DNA of 33,267 nt from a virus. Below are positions 5,601 through 31,061 of this stretch, in pieces. Below the pieces are notes generated by a model that made no database searches, was not told the origin of the DNA, and saw only the letters and a program-made list of their open reading frames with translations. The DNA lies in the IMG/VR virus record IMGVR_UViG_3300003690_000053, positions 1 to 33,267 of that record; one strand, given 5' to 3'. The position numbers and the translations under genes were made by a program. Position 1 is the stretch's first letter. Each line of letters opens with the position of its first letter.

Positions 5601-6716
5601 CATTCCTGGAACTTGACCCATAGCGCCTGGAGGAGTTGGCAATGTTGCTCCAGCTCCTGGAGCTTGTGCAGCTCCACCTTGTCCTCCCATTTGTCCGCCC
5701 ACCATTTGGGCTTCTTTATAAGTTTTCTTTTCACCTTTAGCTTCTTTAACGATATCCTCTCGTTTTTTTGCAAGTGAAGAAGTTACCCGAGCTCCTCTAG
5801 CTCCACCGCCTGAAGCAACGCTTGTAGATGTCATAGATCCACCTGTCATATTTTTAGTTTTTTCTCTTCTTTCATGTTGATCATCAAATGGTCCTGCGAA
5901 TTCTTCTGCGAATTCTTCTCCTTCATCTAATGGTCCTATGAGTTCTGCTGCGGCAAGTTCATCTTCATCTGTGAGCATACTTTTATCTTTAAATATACCA
6001 CAGCCTGTTCCGTCAGTTCCGTCAGTTCCGTCAGTTCCGTCAGTTTCGTCAGTTCCTTTGTTCAATCTAATTTCCAAAACAACAGTTTGCGGGTTGCCAT
6101 TATCAGGGCCACCGATCATTTGCTGTCCAAACTTATAAACTGCCTGAGCAAAAGCTTTTTTATCTTTAGGATCTGCTTCAATTTCACTTAAAGCGAATCG
6201 GACTTCATACAGGCCATCTTCCGGTTTATTAATATCCTCGATAGCCTGTTCAAAGGCAGCGAATTTATCAACAGAAACGTTATCGACTTGCGTTTCTGCG
6301 AGTTTTTCTTGTACCAATTCATTAACTTTAGCTATTGCTTTCTTATTACCGAGTGAATATTCGATAGCTTCATAGACATCTTCTACTTTCACGCCATGTG
6401 TGCCATTTTTCGCAACGGAATAGATAAGTGCGTCGAGGTCATTAGGAGTATCTGCGCTTGAAGCCATTTTCTTGAAATAGGAGATATTATGTGTTATATC
6501 ATCAAGTTCTTCTCGCTTATAAGGAAGCGAATGAAGCAATGTCAAGAACGCAACCTTATCACTAGATTTATCATCATTAGCTAATGCAGCTGCTCGTTGC
6601 AATTCTTTTGGAGATTTGCTATATTTAGCGATAGCATCGGAGATAGATTGAGTAGCAATCTTAATAACTTCCTTACTATATCCGGCGCTTGGCGCTTGCC
6701 CAGCGTTTAATACCAT
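2613..6716 (-). CDS. Giant acidic scaffold-like / internal head protein with MGHE repeats
   Basis: A 1367-residue protein I cannot match to a named family. Residues 1-200 are mostly helical. Residues 221-238 are a Thr-Asp-Gly repeat. Residues 340-390 are Gly/Pro-rich. CxxC pairs suggest zinc binding at 401/404 with 418/421, at 559/562, and at 873/874/877 with 885/888. Residues 735-860 are extremely acidic. Residues 911-957 are a Gly/Ala amphipathic stretch. Six MGHE motifs follow at 1037, 1059, 1083, 1171, 1193 and 1220. The last 110 residues are helical and end ALKKVFGKI. The gene lies between protease and capsid, the usual scaffold position, and its start overlaps the protease end by 41 bp. 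The SD is weak. A scaffold or internal head role is inferred from position, acidity and repeats. It could instead be a packaged protein with several zinc modules. Confidence 0.7.
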   Translation of the reverse strand: MVLNAGQAPSAGYSKEVIKIATQSISDAIAKYSKSPKELQRAAALANDDKSSDKVAFLTLLHSLPYKREELDDITHNISYFKKMASSADTPNDLDALIYSVAKNGTHGVKVEDVYEAIEYSLGNKKAIAKVNELVQEKLAETQVDNVSVDKFAAFEQAIEDINKPEDGLYEVRFALSEIEADPKDKKAFAQAVYKFGQQMIGGPDNGNPQTVVLEIRLNKGTDETDGTDGTDGTDGTGCGIFKDKSMLTDEDELAAAELIGPLDEGEEFAEEFAGPFDDQHERREKTKNMTGGSMTSTSVASGGGARGARVTSSLAKKREDIVKEAKGEKKTYKEAQMVGGQMGGQGGAAQAPGAGATLPTPPGAMGQVPGMESFTAAPGPGAEGLEGTEDLEPKPPGSICVVCGSSDVDIVSGKGKCNNCSSEMQFKVSVDVTRWANLTPEAEEGGERDEGLGEGEGFELPEMGGGGDMGMGVGAENVGLAAMVRLQPQSIKKLAKSEIKIGSVSPANGKTNTVSLGKGNWYCLDTGTSYKVSYAADMKTKMAYAQWEWTPRTPNGDCPSCNRAKLRFVKALKVQDITEEQFDAFDIQKKTETILKMKKAGSLKNIKIASKDESDVIAQYKKAYHTYGNDFPMETCLEKLSRRFGENALALSGPCEGKSLAPCVCASLSKAGMYNSNLAIKVAEVWEDNDGSDCCVEDQIRLGLNIKDAGAACEALKIAMASQEDILADKLAQLVEEDDMGDDMGDDMDVDPFEEEEEEVGDEMGDEDADADVSVEVGDVGGEMVTLEIPKEVLLEFDAAADVALGSDPTDDLGPGDEVAVDVDVEEVPGEEEVPGEGEVIDDAPPAESIEDIEDVGDVIEEGKPMAAAGDCCPECGAPMEDECPTCGEPKDNPADEGDQYVEGEGEEKSMLGGLARGAAGAIGGAAEAVGGIASGTGEAIGGVAEGIGKAVGALATGEDTEASSEYDLKEAMHMQGSIGKTQDIQLDLAEVAKAIGIQTKEAGEKEIQQENVQDGENTKPYSAGNPADGGHASEMGHENEAVSTATTPTVPRDNALMGHEDSDLNPQDKPQPHIPSDKGTMGHEDEVGLEGGDARYTGGDEGAGKTNIAQSEEEILEAELLHMRGHGNAKNRLAVMAQRILDAQNKKLEPKKPVADDEDIKPIKGNTTMGHEPEFTAETPTNTETANDSHMGHERETVGDKPTSPKDHPELPADNALMGHEEGGEIGPEKQTRDKGTVIASGDIKPEVLIESRKLAFSVAAQMLQNDLIEVSQLETKVEELAKYEPAQIKDFQNAIAKQASEGKKGLPTESRGLEQPLVINEKSSLRNSNDELQTKLSSLFSLHQQNEAATETPDFALKKVFGKI
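3048..3608 (-). repeat. Six MGHE motif repeats in the scaffold-like protein
   Basis: The tetrapeptide MGHE, almost always followed by acidic residues, occurs six times in residues 1037-1223. It is usually preceded by a small or polar residue pair (NALMGHE twice, GTMGHE, TTMGHE, SHMGHE). On the plus strand this appears as repeated tcatgtcccat-like words. Spacing is irregular (22 to 88 residues), so these look like short linear motifs in a disordered tail. Confidence 0.85.
6003..6056 (-). repeat. 9-bp tandem repeat encoding Thr-Asp-Gly
   Basis: GGAACTGAC-type 9-bp units are repeated about six times with one variant unit, encoding residues 221-238 of the scaffold-like protein. It is likely slippage-prone and forms a flexible linker. 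Confidence 0.85.
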
Positions 6717-9700
6717 AGTCTTGATCTTTAAATTGTCCTTCTGTAATAACCTCGGAAGGTCCGACGAAGCGGTGAGTGCTTAAAAGTTCTCTCAGTTGCT
6801 TTTCGGTGATTATTTCTGTCCAATCATCTGGCAATTTAGCACTAGCTAGACGGCTGAAATCTGTCCATTGTTTTTCAGTGATAACTTCTGGCCAATCTTT
6901 CCAACGAGTAACATATCCATCAGTAATAGAATCAAGTTGTCCTTGTGTAATAACGTCATAAGAGCCTCTACGTGTCTGAGGGGACTCGCTAGTTGTGTCA
7001 TCTAGTTCATCAGCGTCTTTTTCACCAGAAATTTCAGCTTCTGTGATTTGTTCCCAAGTTTCATTTGTTCTTGGATGCAAGTCAGCATTTTCTGAGCTAG
7101 AAAGCTGTTTTTCTGTAATCACTTCTTGCTGAGCATCGCTATCGTTAGCTGGATTTCCAACTGCCGCAGTTTTATCTGTTTCTTTAATTGCAGTTTTGTT
7201 TGTTTCTTTAGTTCCTGGCATGACGTTAATTAACTCCTTGTTGGCCAAAATTTCTTTTCCGGCTTTTTCCGGATCACTATCAATCATCTTTTGAATATCT
7301 TCAGGAAAAGTAGACACATTCGCAGAGCGAATAATCTTTTCTCCTTGGGCTTCTATAACCATTGTTCCGTCTGCTGACGTTTTATCAATAACAATGCGAC
7401 GAACTTCTTTGTCGGAAGGATCGCCATCAAACACTTCTATATAAGTTTTAGACACACTAGAGCTCCTAGAGAGTTTATTTGCATTAAGATTCTTAATCTT
7501 ATCCCTTACTTTAGAAGAAGATGCAAATAAATCCTTCTTTTTATTTATGAAATTAGAGGAAAATTTTGGTTTAATTACTGACCCAAGTCCAGACATATCT
7601 TGAATAGATATTCCAGATGGAGTAACTTGAGTAGTTGTAGCACCTATAGGAGGTGGTGCTTGCTGTCCAGGTTGCACTGGTTGAGCTGGTTGAGCATCAG
7701 GAGATTGAGGAGTTGTATCTCCTATAGCTTCAACTGTTGGAGATGGAAGTTGAGCATATCCCATTTCTGAGAGTTCATCAACAATACCTTGAACGTCAGC
7801 CATTGCTTTAACAAGATCGCTAACATATTCCATCGATATCTCATTTTTCTGAGCAAGCATGCTTTTAACGACTTTTTCCATGCCACTCATGCTTTCAGTA
7901 AGATTAGTTAATTCGTCTTGTCCTGCGACCTTCTTTAATTTCGAATCATCATTACCTCTTGTCATTTGTAGTTGAGCAATAGCTTTTTTAAGTTCAGCAA
8001 CCTTTTTGGTAACATTTGGAGCGTGTAAGATATCACATACACCGCATCTATGACATGCAGGGTTAACAACGAAGCTATTTTCAATAAATTTTAGACCGAA
8101 GTTGTGTTCAAAGATTTGTTGTTCTTTATAATGATTTATCTTGCTTTCGCTTCGTTTTTTACCGCAAATGGGACAAGGTTCTTCTCCTGCATCTTCTCCG
8201 TCGTGATATTCACAATTATAATCGCCAGATACTTTACGATTCTTGCGATTTTTAACATGATCACAATATTCATCTGCTGTGGGAGATTTTTTGTGGCAAA
8301 CAGAACAGACAGAATAATCGACAGAACAATTATGAGTAGCAATATCGTTTAATATATAACTATGATCGCTTTCCTCATTATTGAGGCTTCCAACCTGAAT
8401 GTAATAAGTTGGTTCGTCATTCTCTATTATTTCAACTTCTTTGACTCTATGTGCAACATATTTGTCGTAGAAAAATGAATCAAACTTTGACTGCTTAGCT
8501 TTTTTATTTACATTAGCTTTTCTTGATTGACCAGATAATACATCGCTAATAGTATTTGTAAAATAAAGCATGTATTCCACGTATTCGAAATCATTATCAA
8601 TAACAGTTGACGTTGACGCTGAAGCTATGCGCTCATGTCTTGATAAAGTAGCAGGAACACCTAGATTCAAAGATATTTTTCTAACACCCGAAAGCAGATC
8701 ATTTGAAGCCGATGATAACTGCAAAGCTCCTGATTCACTCGATCCTTTTTTAGTTGATCTCTCCTGAACAATACAACCATCGCCATCGAGGTAAGCACCT
8801 AAAAACGTTTTTTGGGTAATAAAAGATTCGTTTCTTAATAAATTAGAAACCTTCTTAACTTTGCTACCAGTGCCAATGTGTTTAAGACAAATTTCGGCTA
8901 GGTCTGGATTCCACGTTGTGATGTATACGCCATTTCTATCAGCAACTTTTCTTTCATGAACATTATTTTCTGGATATCTCTTTTTCAGAGCTTCTTGTAA
9001 TTGGCCTTTAAGTGGATCGTTTAATCCGAAGCTGAAACCAACCGTAGACTGGCTGACCCAACCTTCGGCAGCATATACTCCCAAAATAAATGCTAACTTA
9101 TTATCCAGATTTGCATGATATTCAGAAAAAACATACTTATCCAATATCTCTAAAACATGATCTCCCTCTTTCACAAGACTGGCTTTTATAAAAGCGGGCT
9201 TAACCGTCTTATTAATTTCGGAAATATTTTTTCTATATTTTTTTCCAGATTTCGTTGTATAGTGCAGATCAGAACCTCGTAACACCAAAACAGGATGTTC
9301 GCAGCTTAATGCAAGCCCTGATTTTTTACCACTCCATTTAATATGATAAAGTTGTTTATGATCTTGTGTCTTACAAATGGTGTGAATCTTTTCAATCTTG
9401 CCAGTATGAGTTGCAACTTGATCGCTCTTCTTCAATTCATCAACACGTTTCAACGAAAGATCACCCATTGTTACTAAATCATGTCCACGACTAGCTCCCA
9501 TTGAAGTTCCAGTGCAATATTTTTCCTCTATACTTCTGGCTAATGATGGATATGCAACTTTGTCAATACGGGCGAGAATAAAGATGCCACCTTCTTTATC
9601 ATCATACCAAGAATGGACACATTCGCCCCTTGCATTTTCTACTTCACTATTCTGATGGTTTGTAAAGACAGGAACGCCAATGAAGGTATGAGCTGCTTTT

Positions 9701-9954
9701 TTTAGTTCTGCTTCACAGAAAGCATCACCATTGTCATTAACAATGTCTTTTTCGATAGCAAAGATTTTGACGAAAAGATGATCGGGATACTTATCAATAG
9801 AGGCTTGAATATCGAAACCACCGTACTTGTTTTCTTCTGCTTCTTTGACAGAAGCAGTCTTAATCATTTCTGGCAATACGAATATATCCCAATCTTTGGG
9901 ATGATTCAAAGGTTCTATCGTAAAACTATTAAATGCTATTTTTTTAAATGACAT
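6676..9954 (-). CDS. Prohead protease with an intein and a long repeat-bearing C-terminal tail
   Basis: A 1092-residue precursor; removal of the intein (residues 154-542) would leave 703 residues. The protease domain of the T4 gp21-like type spans 1-153 plus 543-650. The presumed catalytic His100 lies in FTNHQ and Ser151 in CTGTSMG. After the intein the domain resumes CSVDYSVCSVCHKK and holds further Cys pairs (594/597, 634, 637/640) that suggest zinc binding. Residues 650-735 are helical, 735-780 Pro/Gln-rich, and 944-1075 carry six VITEKQ-like repeats. The protease matures head proteins inside the prohead. The long tail suggests that protease and scaffold-binding functions are fused. The N-terminus MSFKKIAF follows an AT-rich sequence with only a weak, distant SD. 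Confidence 0.9.
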   Translation of the reverse strand: MSFKKIAFNSFTIEPLNHPKDWDIFVLPEMIKTASVKEAEENKYGGFDIQASIDKYPDHLFVKIFAIEKDIVNDNGDAFCEAELKKAAHTFIGVPVFTNHQNSEVENARGECVHSWYDDKEGGIFILARIDKVAYPSLARSIEEKYCTGTSMGASRGHDLVTMGDLSLKRVDELKKSDQVATHTGKIEKIHTICKTQDHKQLYHIKWSGKKSGLALSCEHPVLVLRGSDLHYTTKSGKKYRKNISEINKTVKPAFIKASLVKEGDHVLEILDKYVFSEYHANLDNKLAFILGVYAAEGWVSQSTVGFSFGLNDPLKGQLQEALKKRYPENNVHERKVADRNGVYITTWNPDLAEICLKHIGTGSKVKKVSNLLRNESFITQKTFLGAYLDGDGCIVQERSTKKGSSESGALQLSSASNDLLSGVRKISLNLGVPATLSRHERIASASTSTVIDNDFEYVEYMLYFTNTISDVLSGQSRKANVNKKAKQSKFDSFFYDKYVAHRVKEVEIIENDEPTYYIQVGSLNNEESDHSYILNDIATHNCSVDYSVCSVCHKKSPTADEYCDHVKNRKNRKVSGDYNCEYHDGEDAGEEPCPICGKKRSESKINHYKEQQIFEHNFGLKFIENSFVVNPACHRCGVCDILHAPNVTKKVAELKKAIAQLQMTRGNDDSKLKKVAGQDELTNLTESMSGMEKVVKSMLAQKNEISMEYVSDLVKAMADVQGIVDELSEMGYAQLPSPTVEAIGDTTPQSPDAQPAQPVQPGQQAPPPIGATTTQVTPSGISIQDMSGLGSVIKPKFSSNFINKKKDLFASSSKVRDKIKNLNANKLSRSSSVSKTYIEVFDGDPSDKEVRRIVIDKTSADGTMVIEAQGEKIIRSANVSTFPEDIQKMIDSDPEKAGKEILANKELINVMPGTKETNKTAIKETDKTAAVGNPANDSDAQQEVITEKQLSSSENADLHPRTNETWEQITEAEISGEKDADELDDTTSESPQTRRGSYDVITQGQLDSITDGYVTRWKDWPEVITEKQWTDFSRLASAKLPDDWTEIITEKQLRELLSTHRFVGPSEVITEGQFKDQDYGIKRWASAKRRI
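6730..7125 (-). repeat. VITEKQ-type repeats in the protease C-terminal tail
   Basis: Six related motifs occur in residues 944-1075: EVITEKQL, EQITEAEI, DVITQGQL, EVITEKQW, EIITEKQL and EVITEGQF. They are separated by 16-25 variable residues, mostly polar. The regular [DE]-[VIQ]-I-T-[EQ] core followed by a hydrophobic residue looks like an amphipathic binding motif repeated for avidity. Confidence 0.85.
8329..9495 (-). mobile_element. LAGLIDADG intein in the prohead protease (389 aa, Ala1, Cys+1)
   Basis: Residues 154-542 of the protease ORF form an intein. Block A is ASRGHDLVTM, with Ala where Cys or Ser is usual. Block B is SCEHPVLVL with His220. Two LAGLIDADG helices are ILGVYAAEGW (about 290-299) and FLGAYLDGDG (384-393). 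Blocks F and G are TYYIQV and ILNDIATHN, ending in His-Asn followed by Cys+1. Removal joins CTGTSMG to CSVDYSVC. Ala1 with Cys+1 resembles class 2 inteins such as KlbA, where Cys+1 attacks the N-terminal junction directly. The endonuclease acids appear intact. Confidence 0.93.
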
Positions 9955-9968
9955 ATTAATTAACTATC

Positions 9969-10406
9969 CTATGACAAAGAAGGCCATGCGTGAACATTCT
10001 TGCTTCTACATTCGCGATTGGTGCAAGTCGCCTCAGATCCTATAGCAAGCATTCTGTTCAATTCATCCGTAAACACTGTTCCGCAATCTTTACACCTCCA
10101 ATACTTAGGACGCGATTCATTGACATCCTTTTCTTGCACCTGTGCTGTTCTTTTATTTCTTCGCTTTTGCAATGCTTGTGCATACACATGAACTTCATCT
10201 TGATAGAATCCAGCTTTAGGTCCGTTAGGCATAGCCTCTAATGCTGCTTTCGCATCTCGTATACCATATCTCAAAACCTCTTCTGGCTGTTGTTCAGCCC
10301 ATGCTTCAGCAGCAGCAAAGTCAAGAGATACAGTTCCATCTGCAAGGGGTGGCATTTCAAACTTTGCGGAATTTTTTACATAACCTGCCGATTTAATTGT
10401 TTTCAT
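9969..10406 (-). CDS. Leader-family protein with a C-terminal zinc ribbon
   Basis: A 145-residue protein beginning MKTIKSAGYVKN, the leader shared with neighbouring genes. The middle is helical (FAAAEAWAEQQPEEVLRYG, then KAALEAMP). The C-terminal part has four cysteines at 105, 108, 128 and 133 in CKDC and CTNREC, a likely zinc ribbon. It ends 14 nt before the protease start. It is probably a virion or head-assembly protein, judging only from context and the leader. No enzyme signature is visible. Confidence 0.75.
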   Translation of the reverse strand: MKTIKSAGYVKNSAKFEMPPLADGTVSLDFAAAEAWAEQQPEEVLRYGIRDAKAALEAMPNGPKAGFYQDEVHVYAQALQKRRNKRTAQVQEKDVNESRPKYWRCKDCGTVFTDELNRMLAIGSEATCTNRECRSKNVHAWPSLS

Positions 10407-10469
10407 TTAATGCTTTCCTGCACCGCTATAATTAAATTTCTCTGTTTTATTCATAATCAGATTTTCCAT
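10407..10469 (-). CDS. Possible 20-residue peptide
   Basis: A very short frame (MENLIMNKTEKFNYSGAGKH) follows an AAAGGAG at about ten bases and stops immediately before the ATG of the next gene. It may be a real small peptide, a remnant, or only the leader of that gene. Confidence 0.25.
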   Translation of the reverse strand: MENLIMNKTEKFNYSGAGKH

Positions 10470-10497
10470 CAAGAGGCATCTCCTTTGTTATCTGCTT

Positions 10498-10971
10498 CTA
10501 ATATTTGGTCGCTAAATGATTTATAAGAGCCAAGTCAAGATCAGCCCTATACTCAGCCCTATTCAACAACGTAGCTTCTAGTTGAGCAACAGCCTGCTTA
10601 ACCGACGTAACTCCAGAATCCTTAGAAAGGAAAGCTCTTATATCATCTATCGAGGCTTTTGAGGGCAATTTATTCGTGAAGAGGTTCTTAAGACCTTTTA
10701 TTTTGTTTCGGATATCCTCATCAGAGCGTCCTTCTCCTTCATGTAATTTAGCCCTATCAAATGCCTCTTCTACGTTCTCTCTTGTTATGGGTTTGCCATT
10801 AGGCAGGAAGAGCCTACCATCTTTAAAGTCGATATTCCTTCTCTCAATGGCCAACTTAAGCCCTGGACTTAAGTCCTCTACAGTAGTAAGTGGACTTAGT
10901 TGTGCTAACTTGTGAGGGAACTTGAGTTTCCTGCGATTTTTGCTATAGCCTGCTGATTTAATTAATTTCAT
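10498..10971 (-). CDS. Leader-family protein, unknown function
   Basis: A 157-residue protein starting MKLIKSAGYSKNRRKLKFPH, with the shared leader followed by a basic stretch. The rest is mostly helical and charged, with a small hairpin-like segment DGRLFLPNGKPIT and a helical C-terminus rich in Leu and Ala. Its ATG overlaps the end of the upstream ORF by 14 nt, implying translational coupling. No known domain is recognised. Confidence 0.75.
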   Translation of the reverse strand: MKLIKSAGYSKNRRKLKFPHKLAQLSPLTTVEDLSPGLKLAIERRNIDFKDGRLFLPNGKPITRENVEEAFDRAKLHEGEGRSDEDIRNKIKGLKNLFTNKLPSKASIDDIRAFLSKDSGVTSVKQAVAQLEATLLNRAEYRADLDLALINHLATKY

Positions 10972-11311
10972 TCACGCTTGTCCTGTGTTTATGGGCCATA
11001 TCTCTTGCAATCTCAACTAAATTATCAGCTAATTCATTCATTAATTCTGGTGTCATTTGTTCCATATTTTTTGCGAAAAATCTTACGGACAAGGCTACAC
11101 TTTGCAATCTTTCGGCAGGCGTGTCTTTTATACCGGGACTTGGATCATCGTCAGTATTTGGATCAAGCATTTCAGCCTGATCAATAGATTCACCAAGACT
11201 CGGTTCGGCGGGTGGCAGCTTCTGAGATTGCTTCATCCAGTCGTCGTAATCTGCTTTCTGCGGATCATCATGCTCGCCCCATCTAGCATTAAGACTTTGC
11301 TCCCTTGTCAT
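10958..11311 (-). CDS. Downstream half of a leader-family gene split by a 35-bp duplication
   Basis: A 117-residue frame starting MTREQSLNARWGEHDD, without the MKxIKSA leader its neighbours have. Its C-terminal half (PSPGIKDTPAERLQSVAL, then VRFFAKNMEQMTPELMNEL) is closely similar to the 76-residue protein at 11933-12163. Deleting one copy of the adjacent 35-bp repeat fuses it in frame behind the ORF at 11317-11649. It is therefore probably the 3' half of a former gene of about 215 codons. The ATG lies inside the repeat and may allow re-initiation five bases after the upstream stop. Confidence 0.65.
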   Translation of the reverse strand: MTREQSLNARWGEHDDPQKADYDDWMKQSQKLPPAEPSLGESIDQAEMLDPNTDDDPSPGIKDTPAERLQSVALSVRFFAKNMEQMTPELMNELADNLVEIARDMAHKHRTSVNEIN

Positions 11312-11372
11312 TCCTTCTACCCTAATGGCCCATTCACCCTTGTCATTCCTTCTACCCTAATGGCCCATTCAA
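11303..11372. repeat. Perfect 35-bp tandem duplication
   Basis: Two identical 35-bp copies (11303-11337 and 11338-11372) lie head to tail over the junction of two ORFs. The unit length is not a multiple of three, so the duplication shifts the frame and produces the TAG at 11317-11319. Confidence 0.95.
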
Positions 11373-11649
11373 TGGCACTCTTCTCATCAGTAATACCTTC
11401 CTCCTTCAACTCTGCTGCTATCTCAACATCTTCCATAGCCTCATCAATTGTAGTGAGAGAACCACGTCCAACTCTGGGGTTGGCTCTAATAACATCAACA
11501 AGAGGTCGCATTTCTACTAGCAGTTGAGCTTTCTGTTGTTCACTTAATTCATGAGCCCATACTGCTATTTTTCTCATGGGAATAATTTTGTAAAGAAATT
11601 TTTTAAAGTATGTCAATACGTTATATCTTGCTGATTTAATTATTTTCAT
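11317..11649 (-). CDS. Upstream half of a leader-family gene split by a 35-bp duplication
   Basis: A 110-residue frame beginning MKIIKSARYNVLTYFKKF, with the shared leader. A helical segment (HELSEQQKAQLLVEMRPLVD) and an acidic region follow. The last residues VNGPLG are encoded by the second copy of the 35-bp repeat and are probably an artefact of the frameshift. Without the duplication the frame would read ...EWAIRVEGMTREQSLN... and continue for another 116 codons. Function is unknown; it may still be made as a shortened protein. Confidence 0.68.
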   Translation of the reverse strand: MKIIKSARYNVLTYFKKFLYKIIPMRKIAVWAHELSEQQKAQLLVEMRPLVDVIRANPRVGRGSLTTIDEAMEDVEIAAELKEEGITDEKSAIEWAIRVEGMTRVNGPLG

Positions 11650-11656
11650 TTGCTAT

Positions 11657-11932
11657 TTACCCTGTATACCTTACTTTGCCCTGTAGAGAGTCCACATCAT
11701 CTGCCATTCTTATTAAATTGCTTGCCATCTCTCTTAACTGGGCGGCGAATGTAGGACCAGTATCATCTATAGGCTGAAGATCCTTAGGGGTAATTGCTCC
11801 TTCACCATCCCAACCCTCGGGAATCGTGCCTTGACCTTTCTTTGTCCATCCCTGCTCTTTTCCTATCTTCTGCCATTCAGATTTAGATAGTTTTAATTGT
11901 GTTTTACCCGATGCGTTTTTAATTAGTTTCAT
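11657..11932 (-). CDS. Leader-family small protein
   Basis: A 91-residue protein starting MKLIKNASGKTQLKLSKS, a divergent copy of the shared leader. A lysine- and glycine-rich middle (EWQKIGKEQGWTKKGQG) is followed by a C-terminal helical segment (FAAQLREMASNLIRMADDVD). That segment resembles the end of the neighbouring 76-residue protein in layout. The ATG directly follows the TAA of the gene upstream with no spacer. Function is unknown. Confidence 0.75.
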   Translation of the reverse strand: MKLIKNASGKTQLKLSKSEWQKIGKEQGWTKKGQGTIPEGWDGEGAITPKDLQPIDDTGPTFAAQLREMASNLIRMADDVDSLQGKVRYTG

Positions 11933-12163
11933 TTATACTTGTCCTGGAACATTCGTCAATATATCTCTTGCAATAGCCTCTAAATTATCAGCTAATTCAT
12001 TCATTAACTCTGGCGTCATTTTTTGCATATCTTTTGCGAAAAATCTTATGCCCATGGCTATATCTTGCAATTTTGCGGCTGGCGGGTCTTTTATGCCGGA
12101 ACTTGAATCATCAGTAATGTCTTGTGCTGTTTTGTTATAAGATGCTGATTTAATTAGTTTCAT
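11933..12163 (-). CDS. Leader-family small protein, intact paralogue of the split gene
   Basis: I start this 76-residue protein at the ATG at 12163 (MKLIKSASYNKTAQDI). The longer frame from 12211 would put 16 unrelated residues before the conserved leader. The remainder (SSGIKDPPAAKLQDIAMG, then IRFFAKDMQKMTPELMNEL) matches the C-terminal half of the ORF at 10958-11311 almost residue for residue, so the two arose by duplication. It is predicted to be helical. It overlaps the membrane-protein gene upstream by 14 nt. Confidence 0.75.
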   Translation of the reverse strand: MKLIKSASYNKTAQDITDDSSSGIKDPPAAKLQDIAMGIRFFAKDMQKMTPELMNELADNLEAIARDILTNVPGQV

Positions 12164-12356
12164 TTGTTTCTTTCTCACATTGCCAGCGCAACACCACATA
12201 CAACCCAGCAAAAAGCGCTGTAAGGAAATAAAAAATTAAAGCTGTACCCCAATAAGAACCTATCAAGTCGAGGAAAGTCTTGAATACGATATCGTACCCA
12301 AGAGGGCAAAAGAAAGCCGCTGCCGCGAGGCAGATTGTTGCAAGTCTCTCTGTCAT
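12150..12356 (-). CDS. Small membrane protein with two transmembrane helices
   Basis: A 68-residue protein if started at the second ATG (12356), which has TAGGA six bases upstream; the first ATG at 12362 would add two residues. Two hydrophobic segments (LATICLAAAAFFCPLGY and a second ending in FLTALFAGLYVVL) are joined by a short loop. The C-terminus is charged (RWQCEKETNETN). The layout fits a two-helix holin-like or other inner-membrane protein, but nothing else nearby supports a lysis role. A competing frame (12175-12411) has no better support. Confidence 0.6.
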   Translation of the reverse strand: MTERLATICLAAAAFFCPLGYDIVFKTFLDLIGSYWGTALIFYFLTALFAGLYVVLRWQCEKETNETN

Positions 12357-12536: not shown

Positions 12537-13046
12537 CTAAGCCCCAGTTGCATTCTTTACATAATAGATTTCATCTTCAATACTCCCCCTTACGTGCCTA
12601 GGTATTTTGATATTTGCTAAATCATGAACTGTATAATTAGATACCCCTTTAGGAAAAGGCACTGCCCATCGATCTGCAGCAAAACTTAATGCAGCATGCA
12701 AACTAGAAAAGTATTCTCCTGAGGGAGCATATATTTTCTTCTTCTCGTCTTGTGGTAATCTTTTGATACCGGCAAAGAATTGTTTCTTCAAGTCTTTTGT
12801 TAGTGCAGGACCAACAACAATAAAATAATCACCATTTGTAGTATAGTCGTGCCCCTCCCAACGATGATATGAGCCACTTCCCAATTCTCTATCATAACGC
12901 TTCTTTAATGGCGCAGACTTATCATGATAGAACTCTTCCCATTTGATGCCTCTGTCACGAATGCGTTTTCTGCCCTTCAGACTGCCTTTAGGCGGGGGAA
13001 GGTAATTCCTTGCTTGTTTGTGTTCTTTCAGGTTGAAGCTGGCCAT
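12537..13046 (-). CDS. Unknown protein overlapping the portal 3' end
   Basis: The protein is 169 residues from the ATG at 13046 (MASFNLKEHKQARNYLPPP); the longer frame needs a TTG start. The first 59 nt overlap the end of the portal gene in another frame. A basic N-terminal stretch (KGSLKGRKRIRDRG) is followed by a mixed alpha/beta region with many Tyr, Trp and His (SGSYHRWEGHDYTTNGDYF). The N-terminal FNLKE resembles FNLKKAQ and FNLSKTAQ found in the large ORF at 17081-18721. No family is recognised; it is probably a virion protein by context. Confidence 0.7.
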   Translation of the reverse strand: MASFNLKEHKQARNYLPPPKGSLKGRKRIRDRGIKWEEFYHDKSAPLKKRYDRELGSGSYHRWEGHDYTTNGDYFIVVGPALTKDLKKQFFAGIKRLPQDEKKKIYAPSGEYFSSLHAALSFAADRWAVPFPKGVSNYTVHDLANIKIPRHVRGSIEDEIYYVKNATGA

Positions 13047-16000
13047 TAGTCTCTGGTTCTCCAATTAATATTCGTTTTCCTAGTCCATTATCCAATTCGC
13101 TAACAGAAACAGTAATTGTTTCCTCGTCTCCATTTGCAGCAAATCTAGTTCCAGGCAACTTTAAAGAAGCAAATTTCTCAAATGTCGTATCGTTTTCAGC
13201 TGCCTTCTTAAGATCTTTTGCTGCTTCCGTTATATTTTGCAAGATAACATCTTTAATAGTATCAATGTGTTCTTCAACTGCTTCCTCTTTAAATCTTAAT
13301 ATTCTCCATCCAACATTAGCAAGTTTCTGGTCTCTTTGCATATCTCTTTCTTTTAAATCCTCTCGTTCATGCCACATCTTTCCATCTGTTTCAATGCCTA
13401 TTCCAATTTCAGGATAAGCAAAATCTAAACTAAATGGTTGTTGCTGCCCAGGCAATTTGATAGCATATTGTCCAAACAAGGCAAATGGCACATTTAAACC
13501 ACTTAGGACTTTATACATCTTTTGCTCTATCTTTGTTAGGCGCATAACCCTTGTCGGCACTGGTTCTTGCCCTGCTTGTTCTCTTGCTTTGCCTCTTTTT
13601 GGAATTGCTAATCCTGCATCAGCTGATGCGGCAGCTGGCATGCCACCACCAGGAGGTGCACCCATGCCACCACCAGGAGGTGCACCCATGCCACCACCAG
13701 GAGGTGCACCCATGCCGCCCATTTCAGCTCCCGGCATACCTAGAGGGGCACCTTCTATGCCCATTGCTCCTTCTGCTCCTGGCGGGCCTCCTAATCCTCC
13801 ACCCATTGGCATTCCACCTCCTCCCATTGCACCTTCTGCTCCACCTGCACCGGGCATAATCTGCCCACTTTGCATTGCAACTAGTCGTTCTTCTCGCAAT
13901 CTCTCTTGTTCAATATCATAATCTAGCTCGAACTCTTCACAAATTGTTTGACCAGAAACTAATTCTTTGTCATAAACTTGCATAAGCAATTGCAAATTAC
14001 TAGATTTATCACGAAGCTTAAGATCATTCCATTTTATAGTAGGATATATATATTTAGGTTTTCCTACTATTTTAGATTCTTCTTCATCAATAAATCCTTG
14101 CATCATTGCAATAGGCAAGAATATATGTTTTTCAACCCACTTCGCAAGTTTTGATTGCCATCTTTCTAAACGTTTAATCAAAATCTCAACGCCAACCTGA
14201 GCCGAGGTATAACCGGCCGCTTCGCCATTCAGCAAAGCTTGATTAAGCATAAACCCATCTAATACTTCTTTGCCAATGTTTTCCATCTCGGAAGTAATGT
14301 TGTGAATCTTGCTTGTGGCACCCTCCCAGCTATATTCAAATGCGTGGTGGGTAACAATTGTCATATTAGGATCATTAACAACAGCAGATAATTGACTCTG
14401 GACATTTGAGATATCATCGTCAGAAGCCGGACGATCTTTGTCGCCAACTTTAACAATGCGAACAGGCAATATAAGTCGCTCAGCAGTAATCCAGTTTGCA
14501 GTCATAATTTTAGTTTTATAAGCTAAGATAGTAAACATGCGACGTAGCAATGGACTACTATAAGTTGCATAAGAACTAGCATTATGTTTAATATGGCTTA
14601 CAGAACGATTAGATAGTGGAATAGGTCTGCCAGATGCAACTAAATCAATAAGCTTAGGATCTAGCCTGTCATAAATTTGTTTAGGCTCTCTACGCTGCAC
14701 AAGCATTCTAAGCTCTTCATCAGGCATTAAAGCAAGAACTGGTTCTTTTGCTAGAACATTCGTTTGCACTTCAACATAATCTGGATTCATAAGAACAACA
14801 CGACTAAATGAACCACCTTTATGATTGCATTGTTCTCCTTCTCGATCAGTGCCTGATCCACCACAATGTTCACATTCAATTTCCAAGAAAGGAAATACAT
14901 CGCCTAATAAATAATACTCATGACTTATATGAGCAAGCCAATCTTCCAGATCTAAATCTTCTACAGCTTGCTCAAAATACTTACAAATCTTCTTGCTTCT
15001 AGATTCAAGCTTGAATCCTGAAAGTGGGAAATTCGCGTAAAAATCTACACCTGCTGCAACCTTAGGTTCGTTGTCATACCAGAAGCGGCAATTAGAAGCT
15101 ACATACCCTGATGCAACAAATGCACGTTCAGGATCAATTTGAAGATCATAACCTTTGCCAGTATACTTGAATTCTCTTATTTTCTGTATAGGCTGGGCTA
15201 AATATGTTACTCCATCTTCTTCATAGAAAAATCGAAGCTGACGCTGAGGCTTTGGCTTGAAGCCCTGTGGAATCTTGCTGCTGCGCAAGTAAGGCTGTAA
15301 TTTAGGAACTTCCGAAGACGGAATAATTATTCGATAACACCATTCAGAATCAGTCTCGTAGTGTTCGCCATAAAGTGGCAAACGCTTTAATGAACAGTTT
15401 ATACCTACAGACAATAACATCCAATATAGCTGATCTGCCATATCGCAAGAATAATTGTTAGCAACTAACAACCCCTTTGGTGGAGAAAAATGTCCATCAC
15501 CATCAAAATAACCACCAAGAACATGGAGGCGGGACTCTTTATCTAATTCAAAAACATCAGCACGGAATTTCTTTTTAGTTAATTTACCAGTGATATAAGT
15601 ATCAAAAAATTCCCAGATATCTGTTCCACTTTGAGAAACCCTCCATCCGTTTCCGTCTCCATGCTGAAAAGATCTGGTTTTTCCATCAAAACTATGTTGA
15701 GACCATTTTTCTAATTCTGGCACATGATACTCATTGCGATCCATAGTGAAATCAACACGGCATGAATGCTCTGGTTTTGTTAAACAGCCATCAGCAATAC
15801 ACAGCCCAACCATCCACGCTTTATTTGTATCTAAAGCAATTTTGCCTAATTTAGGCATAGGAGCAATTAGCAAATCGTCTTTGACGATATCTTGTGCTTC
15901 TCTTTTGTATATCAATTTATCTGGAAATTCTATCGGTGGTTTATCGCCGCCTGCGGGTATGCCTATCTTCCTGCGATACGCAGCATCTTTTTCGAGCTTT

Positions 16001-16581
16001 CTTTTATGGCGATAAAGTTTTCCGTCAATGACAAAAATCTTATGTTCTTCAGAAACTTCTAGAGTTCTCCAATAACCATAAGCACTAAAACCAAAGCATC
16101 GCTTGTCTGTGCAACTTCTCTCTGAAAAATGAGGTGGACGACGTAATTTGCCGCTCGCCCCTAACACAGGCTCGGATTTAATGTCTTGATACCACATTCC
16201 ATTCGTTACCGGATCTTTAACAACTTTATCATAATCAAAAAGCAGATCTTCGACACGTTTTGTGGTATAGTCATTTAACGTAAGTCCTGTTCCAGCAAGT
16301 ATTTTCCACTGATAGCTCTCCCTTCTCTTACTTGCGATTTGCCAATTTTGTGGTGTATGCAGAGGCGAGAAGAACATAGGTTGGGTGAAAATAACATTTG
16401 CACCGGAACCGGCGAACTGTGCCATTTTAGTGATTGGTGTATTTGCTACTGTGCCAACAGGAAATTGCTGAGTCATAGGCACATCTTCAGAAACGGTTGG
16501 AGCTACAATTTCACCACCAGCAGCCTTTGTCATCATTGCTCTGGTTTGTTTATCTGGTAAGTTAACTCTGATTGGTGCCAT
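12988..16581 (-). CDS. Portal protein with an intein and a C-terminal Vsr/DUF559-like nuclease domain
   Basis: A 1197-residue precursor; removing the intein (residues 93-497) leaves 792 residues. The portal forms the DNA-entry ring of the head and docks the terminase. Portal sequence covers 1-92 and 498 to about 900, with CRFWYDNEPKVAAGVDFY after the splice site, a Cys/His cluster (C570, C573, C585, H587) and the stem/clip region with GFMLNQALLNGEAAGYTSAQ. Residues 905-985 are a Gly/Met/Pro-rich linker. Residues 1012-1120 are a PD-(D/E)XK domain of the DUF559/Vsr type: LDF with Asp1053, IETDGK with Glu1064, Asp1066 and Lys1068, then RDQKLANVGWRILRF. The last 75 residues are unassigned. The gene lies well downstream of the terminase. 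The portal and nuclease calls are strong; what the nuclease does in a portal is unknown. Confidence 0.92.
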   Translation of the reverse strand: MAPIRVNLPDKQTRAMMTKAAGGEIVAPTVSEDVPMTQQFPVGTVANTPITKMAQFAGSGANVIFTQPMFFSPLHTPQNWQIASKRRESYQWKILAGTGLTLNDYTTKRVEDLLFDYDKVVKDPVTNGMWYQDIKSEPVLGASGKLRRPPHFSERSCTDKRCFGFSAYGYWRTLEVSEEHKIFVIDGKLYRHKRKLEKDAAYRRKIGIPAGGDKPPIEFPDKLIYKREAQDIVKDDLLIAPMPKLGKIALDTNKAWMVGLCIADGCLTKPEHSCRVDFTMDRNEYHVPELEKWSQHSFDGKTRSFQHGDGNGWRVSQSGTDIWEFFDTYITGKLTKKKFRADVFELDKESRLHVLGGYFDGDGHFSPPKGLLVANNYSCDMADQLYWMLLSVGINCSLKRLPLYGEHYETDSEWCYRIIIPSSEVPKLQPYLRSSKIPQGFKPKPQRQLRFFYEEDGVTYLAQPIQKIREFKYTGKGYDLQIDPERAFVASGYVASNCRFWYDNEPKVAAGVDFYANFPLSGFKLESRSKKICKYFEQAVEDLDLEDWLAHISHEYYLLGDVFPFLEIECEHCGGSGTDREGEQCNHKGGSFSRVVLMNPDYVEVQTNVLAKEPVLALMPDEELRMLVQRREPKQIYDRLDPKLIDLVASGRPIPLSNRSVSHIKHNASSYATYSSPLLRRMFTILAYKTKIMTANWITAERLILPVRIVKVGDKDRPASDDDISNVQSQLSAVVNDPNMTIVTHHAFEYSWEGATSKIHNITSEMENIGKEVLDGFMLNQALLNGEAAGYTSAQVGVEILIKRLERWQSKLAKWVEKHIFLPIAMMQGFIDEEESKIVGKPKYIYPTIKWNDLKLRDKSSNLQLLMQVYDKELVSGQTICEEFELDYDIEQERLREERLVAMQSGQIMPGAGGAEGAMGGGGMPMGGGLGGPPGAEGAMGIEGAPLGMPGAEMGGMGAPPGGGMGAPPGGGMGAPPGGGMPAAASADAGLAIPKRGKAREQAGQEPVPTRVMRLTKIEQKMYKVLSGLNVPFALFGQYAIKLPGQQQPFSLDFAYPEIGIGIETDGKMWHEREDLKERDMQRDQKLANVGWRILRFKEEAVEEHIDTIKDVILQNITEAAKDLKKAAENDTTFEKFASLKLPGTRFAANGDEETITVSVSELDNGLGKRILIGEPETNGQLQPERTQTSKELPSPA
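13640..13711 (-). repeat. 24-bp tandem repeat (three copies) in the portal linker
   Basis: Three perfect copies of a 24-bp unit encode GMGAPPGG-type repeats inside the flexible linker that separates the portal body from the nuclease domain. The wider linker is also Gly/Met/Pro-rich. Confidence 0.93.
15091..16305 (-). mobile_element. LAGLIDADG intein in the portal protein (405 aa, Lys1, Cys+1)
   Basis: Residues 93-497 of the portal ORF. Block A is KILAGTGLTL, which aligns without gaps to the protease intein start, placing Lys at position 1. Block B is VSEEHKIFV with His180. LAGLIDADG helices are MVGLCIADGC (about 257-266) and VLGGYFDGDG (354-363). Blocks F and G are GYDLQI and FVASGYVASN, so the penultimate residue is Ser instead of His, followed by Cys+1. 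Removal joins RESYQW to CRFWYDNE. Homing endonuclease acids are present. A Lys1 intein is unusual; splicing would have to proceed by direct attack of Cys+1. Confidence 0.9.
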
Positions 16582-24464: not shown

Positions 24465-24949
24465 CACGCAACTTTCAAGGGCAAAATATTGCCACAAGTA
24501 GAGCATCTAGCGGGCTCAAAACGACTCCACCACTGGTCTTCATGTGTACTAGCTGTTCTAATTTTACGACTAGCAGTCACAGTAGGTTGCTTTGATGTAG
24601 CTAGAGCTTTTTCATAATCAATAGTTTCATTGTCATTTTCAAATATAGACTTGTTATCACCGAGAACCATTACGCGAATAACTTCAGCGCCTTTATTAGT
24701 AATTTCAATCTTATCACCAACACTTTTTACAAGTCCTGATTTTTCCATCGTTATAATTTCTTCGCGAGACATTGTAGTGGGTCTACGATACAACCTGTTA
24801 TTAATTTTACTATCTTCATCTTTCCATATATTAAACAGATTTTTAGCAGCTTTAGGGTTCACAAGATCCTTGGCTTTTAATTGTTTAGTGATTTCTGGAA
24901 CGAGTATAACTAAATAATCAAAAAAAGATTGTCCAAATGTATTATGCAT
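24464..24949 (-). CDS. Winged-helix-like protein with a C-terminal CxxC
   Basis: A 161-residue protein. Its ATG overlaps the end of the HNH gene by eight bases. Residues 58-95 (TTMSREEIITMEKSGLVKSV, then KIEITNKGAEVIRVM) have the helix-turn-strand pattern of a winged helix. The C-terminus has one CSTCG pair, a possible partial zinc site. Nucleic-acid binding is possible but not shown. The rest is not recognised. Confidence 0.65.
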   Translation of the reverse strand: MHNTFGQSFFDYLVILVPEITKQLKAKDLVNPKAAKNLFNIWKDEDSKINNRLYRRPTTMSREEIITMEKSGLVKSVGDKIEITNKGAEVIRVMVLGDNKSIFENDNETIDYEKALATSKQPTVTASRKIRTASTHEDQWWSRFEPARCSTCGNILPLKVA

Positions 24950-25679
24950 ATTCTTTCTTTCTGTTCTTGTCTAGCCATTCCTCTGTTTGTTTTGGCATGG
25001 GCCTGTTTCCACAATCAAAATGAAGATGTCTATGACAATTGGCACATAAAAGAACACACTTGCCCATCTCTTCTTGTATCCTCTTCAAATTGTATTTACG
25101 GCTGATCATCTCATTAATGGCTATCTTTTTTGACTCTGGATCCGTATGATGAAAATCTAAACAAAACCATCTACTCTCTCCACACGCCTCACACTGACAT
25201 TGCTTTTTATAATCTATTAACCACTGTTGTCTTTCTTGCTTTAAAAAACGAGCTTTAATATTTACTTTCTCTGTGTTATTTTGACGATACCGCTTGCTAC
25301 TGTCCCTATCTTTCTGTTTTCGACGTTCAGTTTTTTGTAGTTCTTCTTTCTGATGCTTCTTGGTTTGCGGTTTAATATTAAGATTATAATACTTCTTCTG
25401 GGCTTTCTGTCTCTTTCGTTCACGCTCAGCACCTTGACATTGCTCAGACCTGCAACAACCTCCATTAATTTCAGAATAACAGAACATCTTTTTACAATGT
25501 CTGCATTTCTTTCTGTTTGCAAAATAAATCTTGCTTCGCAATCGAACATTTAATTTTCTGGCTTCTTTTGAACATTCCTTAGAACAATATTTACGTCGCA
25601 CATGGCTTGAAACAAACGTGGCACTGCACAATGGACATGTTTTCGATATCTTATCTATTTCAGTATTTGTAAGTTCCAT
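24942..25679 (-). CDS. HNH endonuclease, probably a free-standing homing enzyme
   Basis: A 245-residue protein. Several N-terminal Cys pairs suggest zinc modules (C15/C18, C32/C36, C59/C62, C75/C76/C81). A long Lys/Gln/Arg-rich helix follows (about 84-150). The C-terminal HNH domain has CQCEACGE, LDFHHTDP with His177/His178, and LLCANCHRHLH with Asn214 and His216. It sits between two unrelated small structural genes and overlaps the next gene by eight bases, as expected for a mobile gene that inserted without breaking the operon. The neighbours look intact. No intron is visible around it. Confidence 0.88.
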   Translation of the reverse strand: MELTNTEIDKISKTCPLCSATFVSSHVRRKYCSKECSKEARKLNVRLRSKIYFANRKKCRHCKKMFCYSEINGGCCRSEQCQGAERERKRQKAQKKYYNLNIKPQTKKHQKEELQKTERRKQKDRDSSKRYRQNNTEKVNIKARFLKQERQQWLIDYKKQCQCEACGESRWFCLDFHHTDPESKKIAINEMISRKYNLKRIQEEMGKCVLLCANCHRHLHFDCGNRPMPKQTEEWLDKNRKKEYA

Positions 25680-29111: not shown

Positions 29112-31049
29112 TTAACGCATGCCAGGATTTCTCCAAGGCTGCCGACTCATTAGAGCATCTGCAACCTGTTTACCTGTGCCAACACCGACTGGTCCCTGCA
29201 TTCCCTGCCAAACCGTTTCATTGGATTGAGGAGACGTGCCCATATTAACCAGCTTTGGTGAAGGCAATGTATTTGCATTCATATTGATTGCGGAGTAACA
29301 AGCTCCTGCAAGGGAGTCGATTAAATCATCAGTCTTTACGCCATCTCCAGAACGCCTGGCGCTGATTCTATACCCAGTGGGAATAATTTTCTTCTGCAAA
29401 GCAATCATTTCGTCCATTAAAAGAACTGCCGCAGGATCGTTATTAGGAACAATCAGCTTTCCAGCATTTACTACCTGCAAAAGCTCAGCATAAATTACCA
29501 TCTTATATCTATTTGTAAAACGAGTTTCTTTATTTGGCATTCCTGCTTTTCGCAACCTTAACTTGCTCTCCAAGCTATTCCAGGAATCGTATGTGACCAT
29601 GCCAATCCTAAACAAGCGTTTAAGATTAATAACATATTCATCAACTTCAGAAGCGATAACGGGCTTATTAATAGTGGGATGCCAATACTTCAACAAATCA
29701 ACCATAATTATATAATCTGCCTTGTGTGTCTCCTCATTCAAAAATATTTGTTTATGCACTAAAGCTAAAGCATAATTATGGCTTGTTGCTGCTGGATCAA
29801 GATGTAAAAAATATATCTGCCCGGGCTCGCCAAACTTTTTAAACTGAATATTCCCTTTAAAGCATTTTTTAACATATTCTTCTGAAAAGAAATTCTCACC
29901 GGCAATACCACTAAATTCTGCCCCAAATTCCATCTCAAATTCTTCCTCGTTCATTGTCTTGAATTCTTTTTTCAGCGAGATTCTCGTCCTTTCTGGCATA
30001 ACATCCCAAGTTGGAAGCCTACACGCGAGCCTGGAGTCATAAAGATGGGCTTGGGAAAACAAATCCCACAACTTCCCTTCTTTTGCTCGTGGAGAAGATA
30101 TGCTTATAATTTTTCCATCATAAACAATATTACTTACAGTTTTCCCATTTTCGTCTAATTTAGTTTTTCCATTCTTATCCAAAACAGATTCTTCCCGAAA
30201 GAAGTCTGCAATCGTAGGAGTTAAAGCTGAATAAATGCGATCGGCAGACGCCGACCCTCCGCTCGTTTTATAGCTAGCTACTTCATCTAGTATTAACACA
30301 AAACATTTCTTACCAAGCAACGTTGCAGAGTTACTATGACCCACTTCGACAACAATAGAACCTCTTGTTTTTAGCCCCATATCCCTCTCTAAAAATTCCC
30401 TGTTTTCTTCTTTATCTTTGGGAGTCAAGAGGCAGATGCTATCATGCGATAATCCCTCTTTGACATATTTGTCATTAAAATAAGAGCTTGATAATAATTT
30501 ACCTCTAATTTCATTGAATGCAACTTCAGCCTGCCCAGATGAATTCGCGACTGTAAGTACAGTAATAGGGTTATCAGCGGCTATATTATAATAGCCATAC
30601 GGATCTCCTCCAGGAGCTTCCAAGAGCTTCATTGCTTCATAAAGAGCAATGATGCTGGAAACAAAATCCTTGCTAGCTCTGCGACCCCACACAAGAACTA
30701 GCTCTCTAAAAATAACCTTATTATAATATTTGTCCAGAACATTCCCGCGCTCTGAATCTACTAACCCAAGATTTTTACACAAAGAAAGCTCTTCTTCAGT
30801 TAAATTAATATCTTCATTCCCTCTAGAACCTCGGTAAAAAACTTTTAGTATGAGTACCTGAACTGGTTTTAGATGAATTGGACTACGTAGATGTGGCAAA
30901 CCTAAATAATCTTTGCTATTACAAAATTCTATAATATCTGGTATCTTGCGCTTTACACCGGGCAAAGCAATAGCACTCTTCATTTCTGAAATAATATCAG
31001 ACACCGAAGATTGAGCCTTAGATTTATTTGAGGGTCGCCCTCTAGGCAT
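29112..31049 (-). CDS. Terminase large subunit (packaging ATPase and nuclease)
   Basis: A 645-residue protein from the ATG at 31049 (MPRGRPSNKSKAQ), with GGAG six bases upstream; the longer frame uses TTG and would swallow the SD. The ATPase domain has a Walker-A-like GRRASKD (about 122-128, with Asp where Ser or Thr is usual), Walker B LILDE (252-256) and the coupling motif SSPRAKEG (about 318-325). The nuclease domain has the three acidic positions: Asp418 in LHLDPA, Asp488 in VTYDSW, and Asp574/575 in KTDDLIDSLAG. The enzyme pumps DNA through the portal and cuts concatemers. No intein or intron interrupts it, unlike the portal, protease and capsid genes. Confidence 0.93.
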   Translation of the reverse strand: MPRGRPSNKSKAQSSVSDIISEMKSAIALPGVKRKIPDIIEFCNSKDYLGLPHLRSPIHLKPVQVLILKVFYRGSRGNEDINLTEEELSLCKNLGLVDSERGNVLDKYYNKVIFRELVLVWGRRASKDFVSSIIALYEAMKLLEAPGGDPYGYYNIAADNPITVLTVANSSGQAEVAFNEIRGKLLSSSYFNDKYVKEGLSHDSICLLTPKDKEENREFLERDMGLKTRGSIVVEVGHSNSATLLGKKCFVLILDEVASYKTSGGSASADRIYSALTPTIADFFREESVLDKNGKTKLDENGKTVSNIVYDGKIISISSPRAKEGKLWDLFSQAHLYDSRLACRLPTWDVMPERTRISLKKEFKTMNEEEFEMEFGAEFSGIAGENFFSEEYVKKCFKGNIQFKKFGEPGQIYFLHLDPAATSHNYALALVHKQIFLNEETHKADYIIMVDLLKYWHPTINKPVIASEVDEYVINLKRLFRIGMVTYDSWNSLESKLRLRKAGMPNKETRFTNRYKMVIYAELLQVVNAGKLIVPNNDPAAVLLMDEMIALQKKIIPTGYRISARRSGDGVKTDDLIDSLAGACYSAINMNANTLPSPKLVNMGTSPQSNETVWQGMQGPVGVGTGKQVADALMSRQPWRNPGMR

Positions 31050-31061
31050 TATGTTCTCCAA

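Follow-up and report, generated by a model that had tools for sequence, protein, structure and literature searches.

Why does a portal gene, in a virus record of 33,267 nucleotides (IMG/VR IMGVR_UViG_3300003690_000053, positions 1 to 33,267), continue into a nuclease? The whole of this stretch was analysed and is called the window here. An earlier note on the same DNA had singled out positions 12988-13560, which encode residues 1008-1197 and the stop codon of the protein, as a Vsr/DUF559-type nuclease domain fused to a portal. Portals are seen as structural gates, cutting being a task for the terminase or other, separate enzymes, and a nuclease site carried by the portals of a whole clade breaks this division. 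The reading preferred here, to which we assign a probability of roughly 0.4, is that a portal-tethered nuclease processes the phage's own DNA during packaging, by analogy with T4 endonuclease VII.

Portal and nuclease do lie in one ORF (Table 1). What the earlier note did not mention is the intein-like LAGLIDADG insertion between the N-terminal segment and the body of the portal, the junctions of which were set against the empty alleles YQW↓ARFYY and YQW↓CRFYY (arrows mark junctions). The body (residues 498-899 in the comparison with Bacillus phage G gp14) belongs to the portal family phrog_16240, annotated as “portal protein”. It is followed by a linker that measures 76-202 aa in relatives (median 110) and contains 28% Gly, and then by the nuclease domain, which is small and separable. 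An AlphaFold2 model of a full intein-free portal (L011) reached a pLDDT of 40, too low to place the C-terminus or the portal fold.

Table 1. Position in the window of the portal-nuclease fusion gene, its parts and the large terminase gene.
Feature	Position	Strand	Details
Portal-nuclease fusion gene	12988..16581	(-)	1197 codons; single uninterrupted ORF including one intein-like insertion
Portal N-terminal segment, residues 1-92, final letters ...RRESYQW	16306..16581	(-)	Runs straight into the body in intein-free L010, L011, L013, L015, L017, L034
Intein-like LAGLIDADG insertion, residues 93-498 (about)	15088..16305	(-)	LAGLIDADG_3 E 1.8e-5; end VASN↓C; no Cys/Ser at position 1
Portal body, residues 499-899	13885..15087	(-)	phrog_16240 E 3.4e-44; phage G portal 33.6% identity, E 2e-64
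Gly/Pro/Met/Ala-rich linker, residues about 900-1010	13552..13884	(-)	Contains 24-nt tandem repeat (APPGGGMG)
DUF559/Vsr-like PD-(D/E)XK nuclease domain, residues about 1011-1130	13192..13551	(-)	Pfam DUF559 E 2e-8; AlphaFold2; Foldseek 3r3p, 3hrl, 4oq2
Asp1053 (LDF motif)	13423..13425	(-)	Invariant, 102/102
Catalytic motif Glu1064-x-Asp1066	13384..13392	(-)	E 102/102, D 98/102
His1071	13369..13371	(-)	Invariant, 102/102
Asp1084 (RD motif)	13330..13332	(-)	Invariant, 102/102
C-terminal tail, residues 1131-1197	12991..13191	(-)	Variable, shorter in part of clade; modelled β-hairpin at about 1157-1174
Large terminase	29112..31061	(-)	phrog_2 E 8e-17; RNase-H-type nuclease motifs HLDPAA, TYDSW, TDDLIDS intact

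The match of the C-terminal domain to DUF559 (PF04480) scores 34.5 bits against a cut-off of 20.6; the domain also matches MTES_1575 (E 1.3e-8), and DUF559 was matched individually by all 35 aligned relatives (E 0.01 or better). AlphaFold2, given the alignment of these 35 sequences, predicted an α-β-β-β-α-β core with pLDDT >90 across most of it. The top Foldseek neighbour of the model in the PDB is the homing endonuclease I-Bth0305I (3r3p; E 1.5e-4, TM 0.81 on the target), other neighbours being PvuRts1I, AbaSI and the DUF559 protein NGO0050 (3hrl, TM 0.81), and searching PDB sequences with a profile led to two of the same structures (3r3p, E 1.6e-6; 3hrl, E 7e-6). With its core order and its similarity to these solved structures, the modelled domain falls in the PD-(D/E)XK superfamily, and the predicted PD-(D/E)XK/Vsr-like fold is thus confirmed; the possibility raised earlier, that structure prediction would reveal no such fold, did not come about. 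The domain lies outside the Vsr mismatch endonucleases proper, since TIGR00632 gave 22.5 bits against a cut-off of 97.85; the Vsr family PF03852 was matched by two of the 35 members, with a best E of 0.001. NGO0050 shares with it the motif set DF...ExDG..H...R...G(W/F)xxLRF as well as the fold, whereas the known members of DUF559 are free-standing or reside in non-portal proteins. What is new is the fixed architecture, in which a portal and a DUF559 domain, each known in itself, are combined. PvuRts1I and AbaSI are cutters of hydroxymethylated DNA, and the resemblance to their fold would suit a quality control inside the head, in which the domain would cut entering DNA if this is foreign, lacks modifications or bears different ones. 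However, the similarity in sequence is weak, and cutting DNA that is already in the head offers the phage no obvious benefit, so that such a role is improbable.

Comparison of 102 distinct domains, after computational removal of inteins, revealed fourteen residues that are invariant in all of them: T1016, E1019, Q1038, D1053, E1064, G1067 and H1071, followed by D1080, R1083, D1084, L1087, G1091, W1092 and R1096. The acidic pair D...E-x- of PD-(D/E)XK enzymes is therefore present throughout, as D1053 and E1064. Position 1066 is D in 98 domains, E in two and C in two (L166, L169, L170 and L004), and these four keep the remaining catalytic positions. The canonical Lys of (D/E)xK is absent, its place being taken by D1066, and K1068 occurs in only seven of the 102 domains. 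Since the same place in the solved structures reads EADG in the DUF559 protein 3hrl and EVNG in I-Bth0305I, the missing catalytic Lys is a trait of the family. The earlier description of all core acidic and lysine positions as intact thus stands for the acidic residues and has to be given up for Lys1068. Pairwise dN/dS of the nuclease, where dS could be estimated, is 0.02-0.15, about as in the portal body and in most cases lower than in the linker. The nuclease active site is kept under strong purifying selection.

Inteins usually persist in conserved functional or active sites of proteins that need their function after splicing. In seven distinct portals (L024, L031, L045, L046, L080, L102 and L106) an intein is situated inside the catalytic motif, directly after E1064, with the pattern ...E↓C[LV]HP...N↓CDG..., and intein-free ECDG alleles are found in L017 and L028. 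Of these inteins, six were tested; each matches both Intein_splicing and LAGLIDADG_3, with most scores for Intein_splicing under the curated cut-off. Given the preference of inteins for conserved functional sites, their presence in the catalytic motif speaks independently for an active site that is needed. This bears on a non-enzymatic role, in which the domain would bind or guide DNA at the portal or anchor a scaffold, and cutting would be dispensable. Some of the Foldseek matches are mitoribosomal proteins, which are not nucleases and suggest that Vsr-like folds can be binding modules, and the replacement of D1066 by E or C in four portals points the same way; yet D1053, E1064, H1071 and D1084 do not vary in any of the 102 domains and inteins persist in the catalytic motif, which makes a purely non-enzymatic domain quite unlikely.

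Across the clade, intein-like insertions occupy about five distinct sites, the nuclease active site among them, and several portals carry more than one: L042 (2416 aa), L046 (2218 aa), L045 (2051 aa) and L033 (1841 aa). The element that follows “...QW” in the window is also found in L003, L006, L007, L009, L012, L014, L019, L035, L036, L045, L046 and L047. It has a normal N↓C (or Q↓C) end and is without a conserved Cys, Ser or Ala as first residue, where K, L, S, E, M, D, Q or C is found. Judged from these ends, it may represent an unusual intein class or one that cleaves only at its C-terminus.

When only the portal body was used as query, IMG/VR gave 47 loci, and in every one with the 3' end of the gene on the contig the nuclease follows the portal in frame; the exceptions are L027 and L047, which run off their contigs, and L048, which is frameshifted yet still encodes the domain. 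A wider portal-seeded search, from which the best 80 of 224 candidates were taken, and a nuclease-seeded search were added. In the nuclease-seeded set the portal body is present in the matching ORF at all loci except two: L182 lies at a contig end and starts within the linker, and L183 is the frameshifted contig of L048. No version of the domain as a separate ORF was found in the relatives, nor did the nuclease-seeded search return one outside portals. The fusion therefore recurs in all relatives of the clade with the 3' end on the contig, and the suspicion that it is an assembly error or a chance event is ruled out by about 100 distinct portals with the same fusion. Initiation within the gene to yield a free nuclease is disfavoured, since in-frame start sites number 248, below the 318 expected from a synonymous shuffle. 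The group is widespread and uncultured and includes phages of 300-550 kb; among the contigs are some of 548, 494, 476, 379, 371, 334, 316 and 300 kb. Among named phages in INPHARED none was found with the fusion, and the nuclease matched weakly there, mostly to homing-type or helicase genes; a match in a Lak phage was rejected as a portal fusion, being a free-standing homing-like ORF. The open-access literature, including a survey of jumbo phages (PMC7824862), yielded no description of a portal-nuclease fusion, and it may be mentioned elsewhere.

In a tree of 104 portal cores, built quickly and without bootstraps, all 97 rows with a nuclease fall into a single clade (SH-aLRT 99), which also takes in two truncated rows. 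Outside it are five nuclease-free portals, those of phage G and its close relatives L124 and L128, that of L051, which is an uncultured phage record of 485 kb, and that of L129. The last (WJJK01000228.1) is a contig of 4.3 kb in a Candidatus Altiarchaeales MAG and encodes a distant nuclease-free relative similar to the portal of L051. Phage G (Donellivirus) gp14 has the homologous body and then a Gly/Pro-rich tail, as do phage G-type portals generally at the same place, but it has no nuclease domain, and the phage G genome record contains no DUF559 match. Because these portals have the tail without the nuclease, the simplest history suggested by the tree is that the portal gained the nuclease once, at its C-terminus, past a flexible linker that already existed; a loss in the lineage of phage G could also have produced the pattern. 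Since the nuclease served as query for part of the sample, it is the loci from the portal-seeded searches that speak for an absence of losses. Distances between portals and between nucleases are correlated (Mantel r 0.66, with 0 of 999 permutations as high).

It had also been suggested that the domain is a domesticated homing nuclease. A homing nuclease that is still active in the portal gene, or was recently captured by it, would accord with I-Bth0305I as the closest solved structure and with a locus rich in inteins and introns. I-Bth0305I, however, is intron-encoded and has long DNA-recognition regions (PMC3943268), whereas the present domain shows no visible DNA-recognition extension and is fixed in a virion protein. 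Close relatives that differ in having or lacking the domain, the mark of mobile EDxHD homing enzymes, were not found in the clade; every member with a complete 3' end has the domain, it is specific to portals, and a single origin explains its spread. A recent or mobile homing nuclease is thus very improbable.

What the domain would act on is suggested by its place. A nuclease that is fused to a portal, instead of being a free enzyme, points to DNA at the portal as its target, and a nuclease never found free presumably has a task that needs the portal. In T4 the Holliday-junction resolvase endonuclease VII (gp49), bound to the portal gp20, frees Y- or X-branched DNA that is arrested in packaging, as stated in PMC9958956 with reference to Golz and Kemper (1999). 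It offers a possible functional parallel as a nuclease acting from the portal, although it is a separate protein of an unrelated nuclease family. By this analogy, splicing of the inteins would leave a portal ring with 12 nuclease domains tethered beside the DNA channel, on the head-interior side. Each domain would be a metal-dependent endonuclease specific for structure or damage, and would process the phage's own DNA while it threads the portal, for example by removing branches or by resolving nicked, mismatched or end structures, as a built-in counterpart of the portal-bound T4 enzyme. Occurrence in portals only and in one clade, the invariant active site, the low dN/dS, the correlated distances of portal and nuclease, the inteins in the catalytic motif, the patchy separate resolvases described below and the endonucleases among the fold neighbours are counted in favour of this processing role. 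The substrate preference of DUF559 domains is not readable from sequence.

The position of the C-terminus argues against simple debranching, and our confidence in the processing role is low for this reason. Portals are dodecamers in which the C-termini form a crown or barrel that lies within the head (PMC4493910, PMC4992974), a position that the earlier role proposals had not taken into account. With linkers of the length given above, the 12 domains would thus be tethered inside the head close to the channel, whereas branches would stall at the terminase side, and the domain may therefore be misplaced for removing them. The same position favours the main rival, a virion-borne effector, in which 12 nucleases carried in the head, maybe freed at the linker by a head protease, would enter the cell and attack host or competing DNA. 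A gene for a head-maturation-protease-like protein is nearby, at 6676-9954 of the window on the (-) strand (phrog_18299, E 0.001), and toxin domains are known on the MuF head proteins of phages (PMC3482391), which likewise place an enzymatic domain on a head or packaging protein. Yet MuF toxins are diverse, polymorphic and exchangeable, and swapped domains of this kind were not found here: one nuclease family occupies this C-terminus throughout the clade and is inherited vertically, together with the portal. Cleavage of the linker by the head protease is putative, and delivery as an effector is, on balance, unlikely. The odds are about even for a more general statement, that a major lineage of uncultured large and huge phages has as its DNA gate a ring of 12 active nucleases, which would both conduct DNA and cut or repair it, with genome processing intrinsic to the portal and not left to a separate enzyme. 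The fusion opens a direct way to study how packaging copes with the recombining, branched genomes of very large phages or, if the rival holds, how a virion might deliver a nuclease.

Within the packaging machine the domain could also act as a headful cutter, another role that had been put forward earlier, by making or trimming the cut that ends packaging and so replacing or helping the large terminase (TerL). A precedent is T4 gp4, a TnsA-like virion nuclease of the PD-(D/E)XK type that is tied to packaging and whose DNase activity is reportedly needed for it (PMC7824862), although gp4 is a separate head-completion protein outside the portal. Against this, the nuclease motifs of TerL are retained in the window and, by alignment, in those huge relatives that were checked, three of which have motif I beyond the aligned part, and the headful cut occurs outside the head, whereas the portal C-termini are inside. 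Headful cutting by the domain is accordingly disfavoured and has little probability. A loss of the TerL nuclease with takeover by the portal was rejected, as its motifs are intact. Scanning viral contigs with the TerL of the window gave no match, and the TerL sequences of the relatives came from the records behind the loci.

If the portal nuclease processed branched DNA, it might take the place of free resolvases. RuvC was absent from all eight fusion-phage records, which are few, of uncertain completeness and may include the same phage twice, and is present in the nuclease-free phage G. Endonuclease VII was found in one of the eight records and RusA in one, with one further weak match, and RecU in none of those checked, the coverage of resolvase families being incomplete. 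The pattern is weakly consistent with a partial substitution of resolvases by the portal nuclease; a strict replacement was rejected because Endonuclease VII occurs in one fusion phage and RusA in one. Pox_A22 was uninformative as a resolvase marker, since it matched no control.

Several neighbouring features of the window are worth recording. Two group I introns (Rfam RF00028) are located on the (-) strand at 500-782 (E 2e-26) and 957-1186 (E 2e-13), where they adjoin or overlap the 3' part of an ORF at 988-1869 that matches a major head protein (phrog_2522, E 3e-44); judging from these positions, they probably interrupt the major head protein gene. The head-maturation-protease-like protein has an intein of its own (Intein_splicing and LAGLIDADG_3). 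Between it and the portal gene, at 9969-12211 (-), five consecutive small proteins share the motif MK(L/I/T)IK(S/N)A at or near their N-termini, in the variants MKTIKSAGY, MKLIKSAGY, MKIIKSARY, MKLIKNASG and MKLIKSASY, which may be a signal shared by virion proteins for targeting or cleavage. A free-standing HNH endonuclease ORF (phrog_2255, E 4e-22) is present at 24942-25679 (-).
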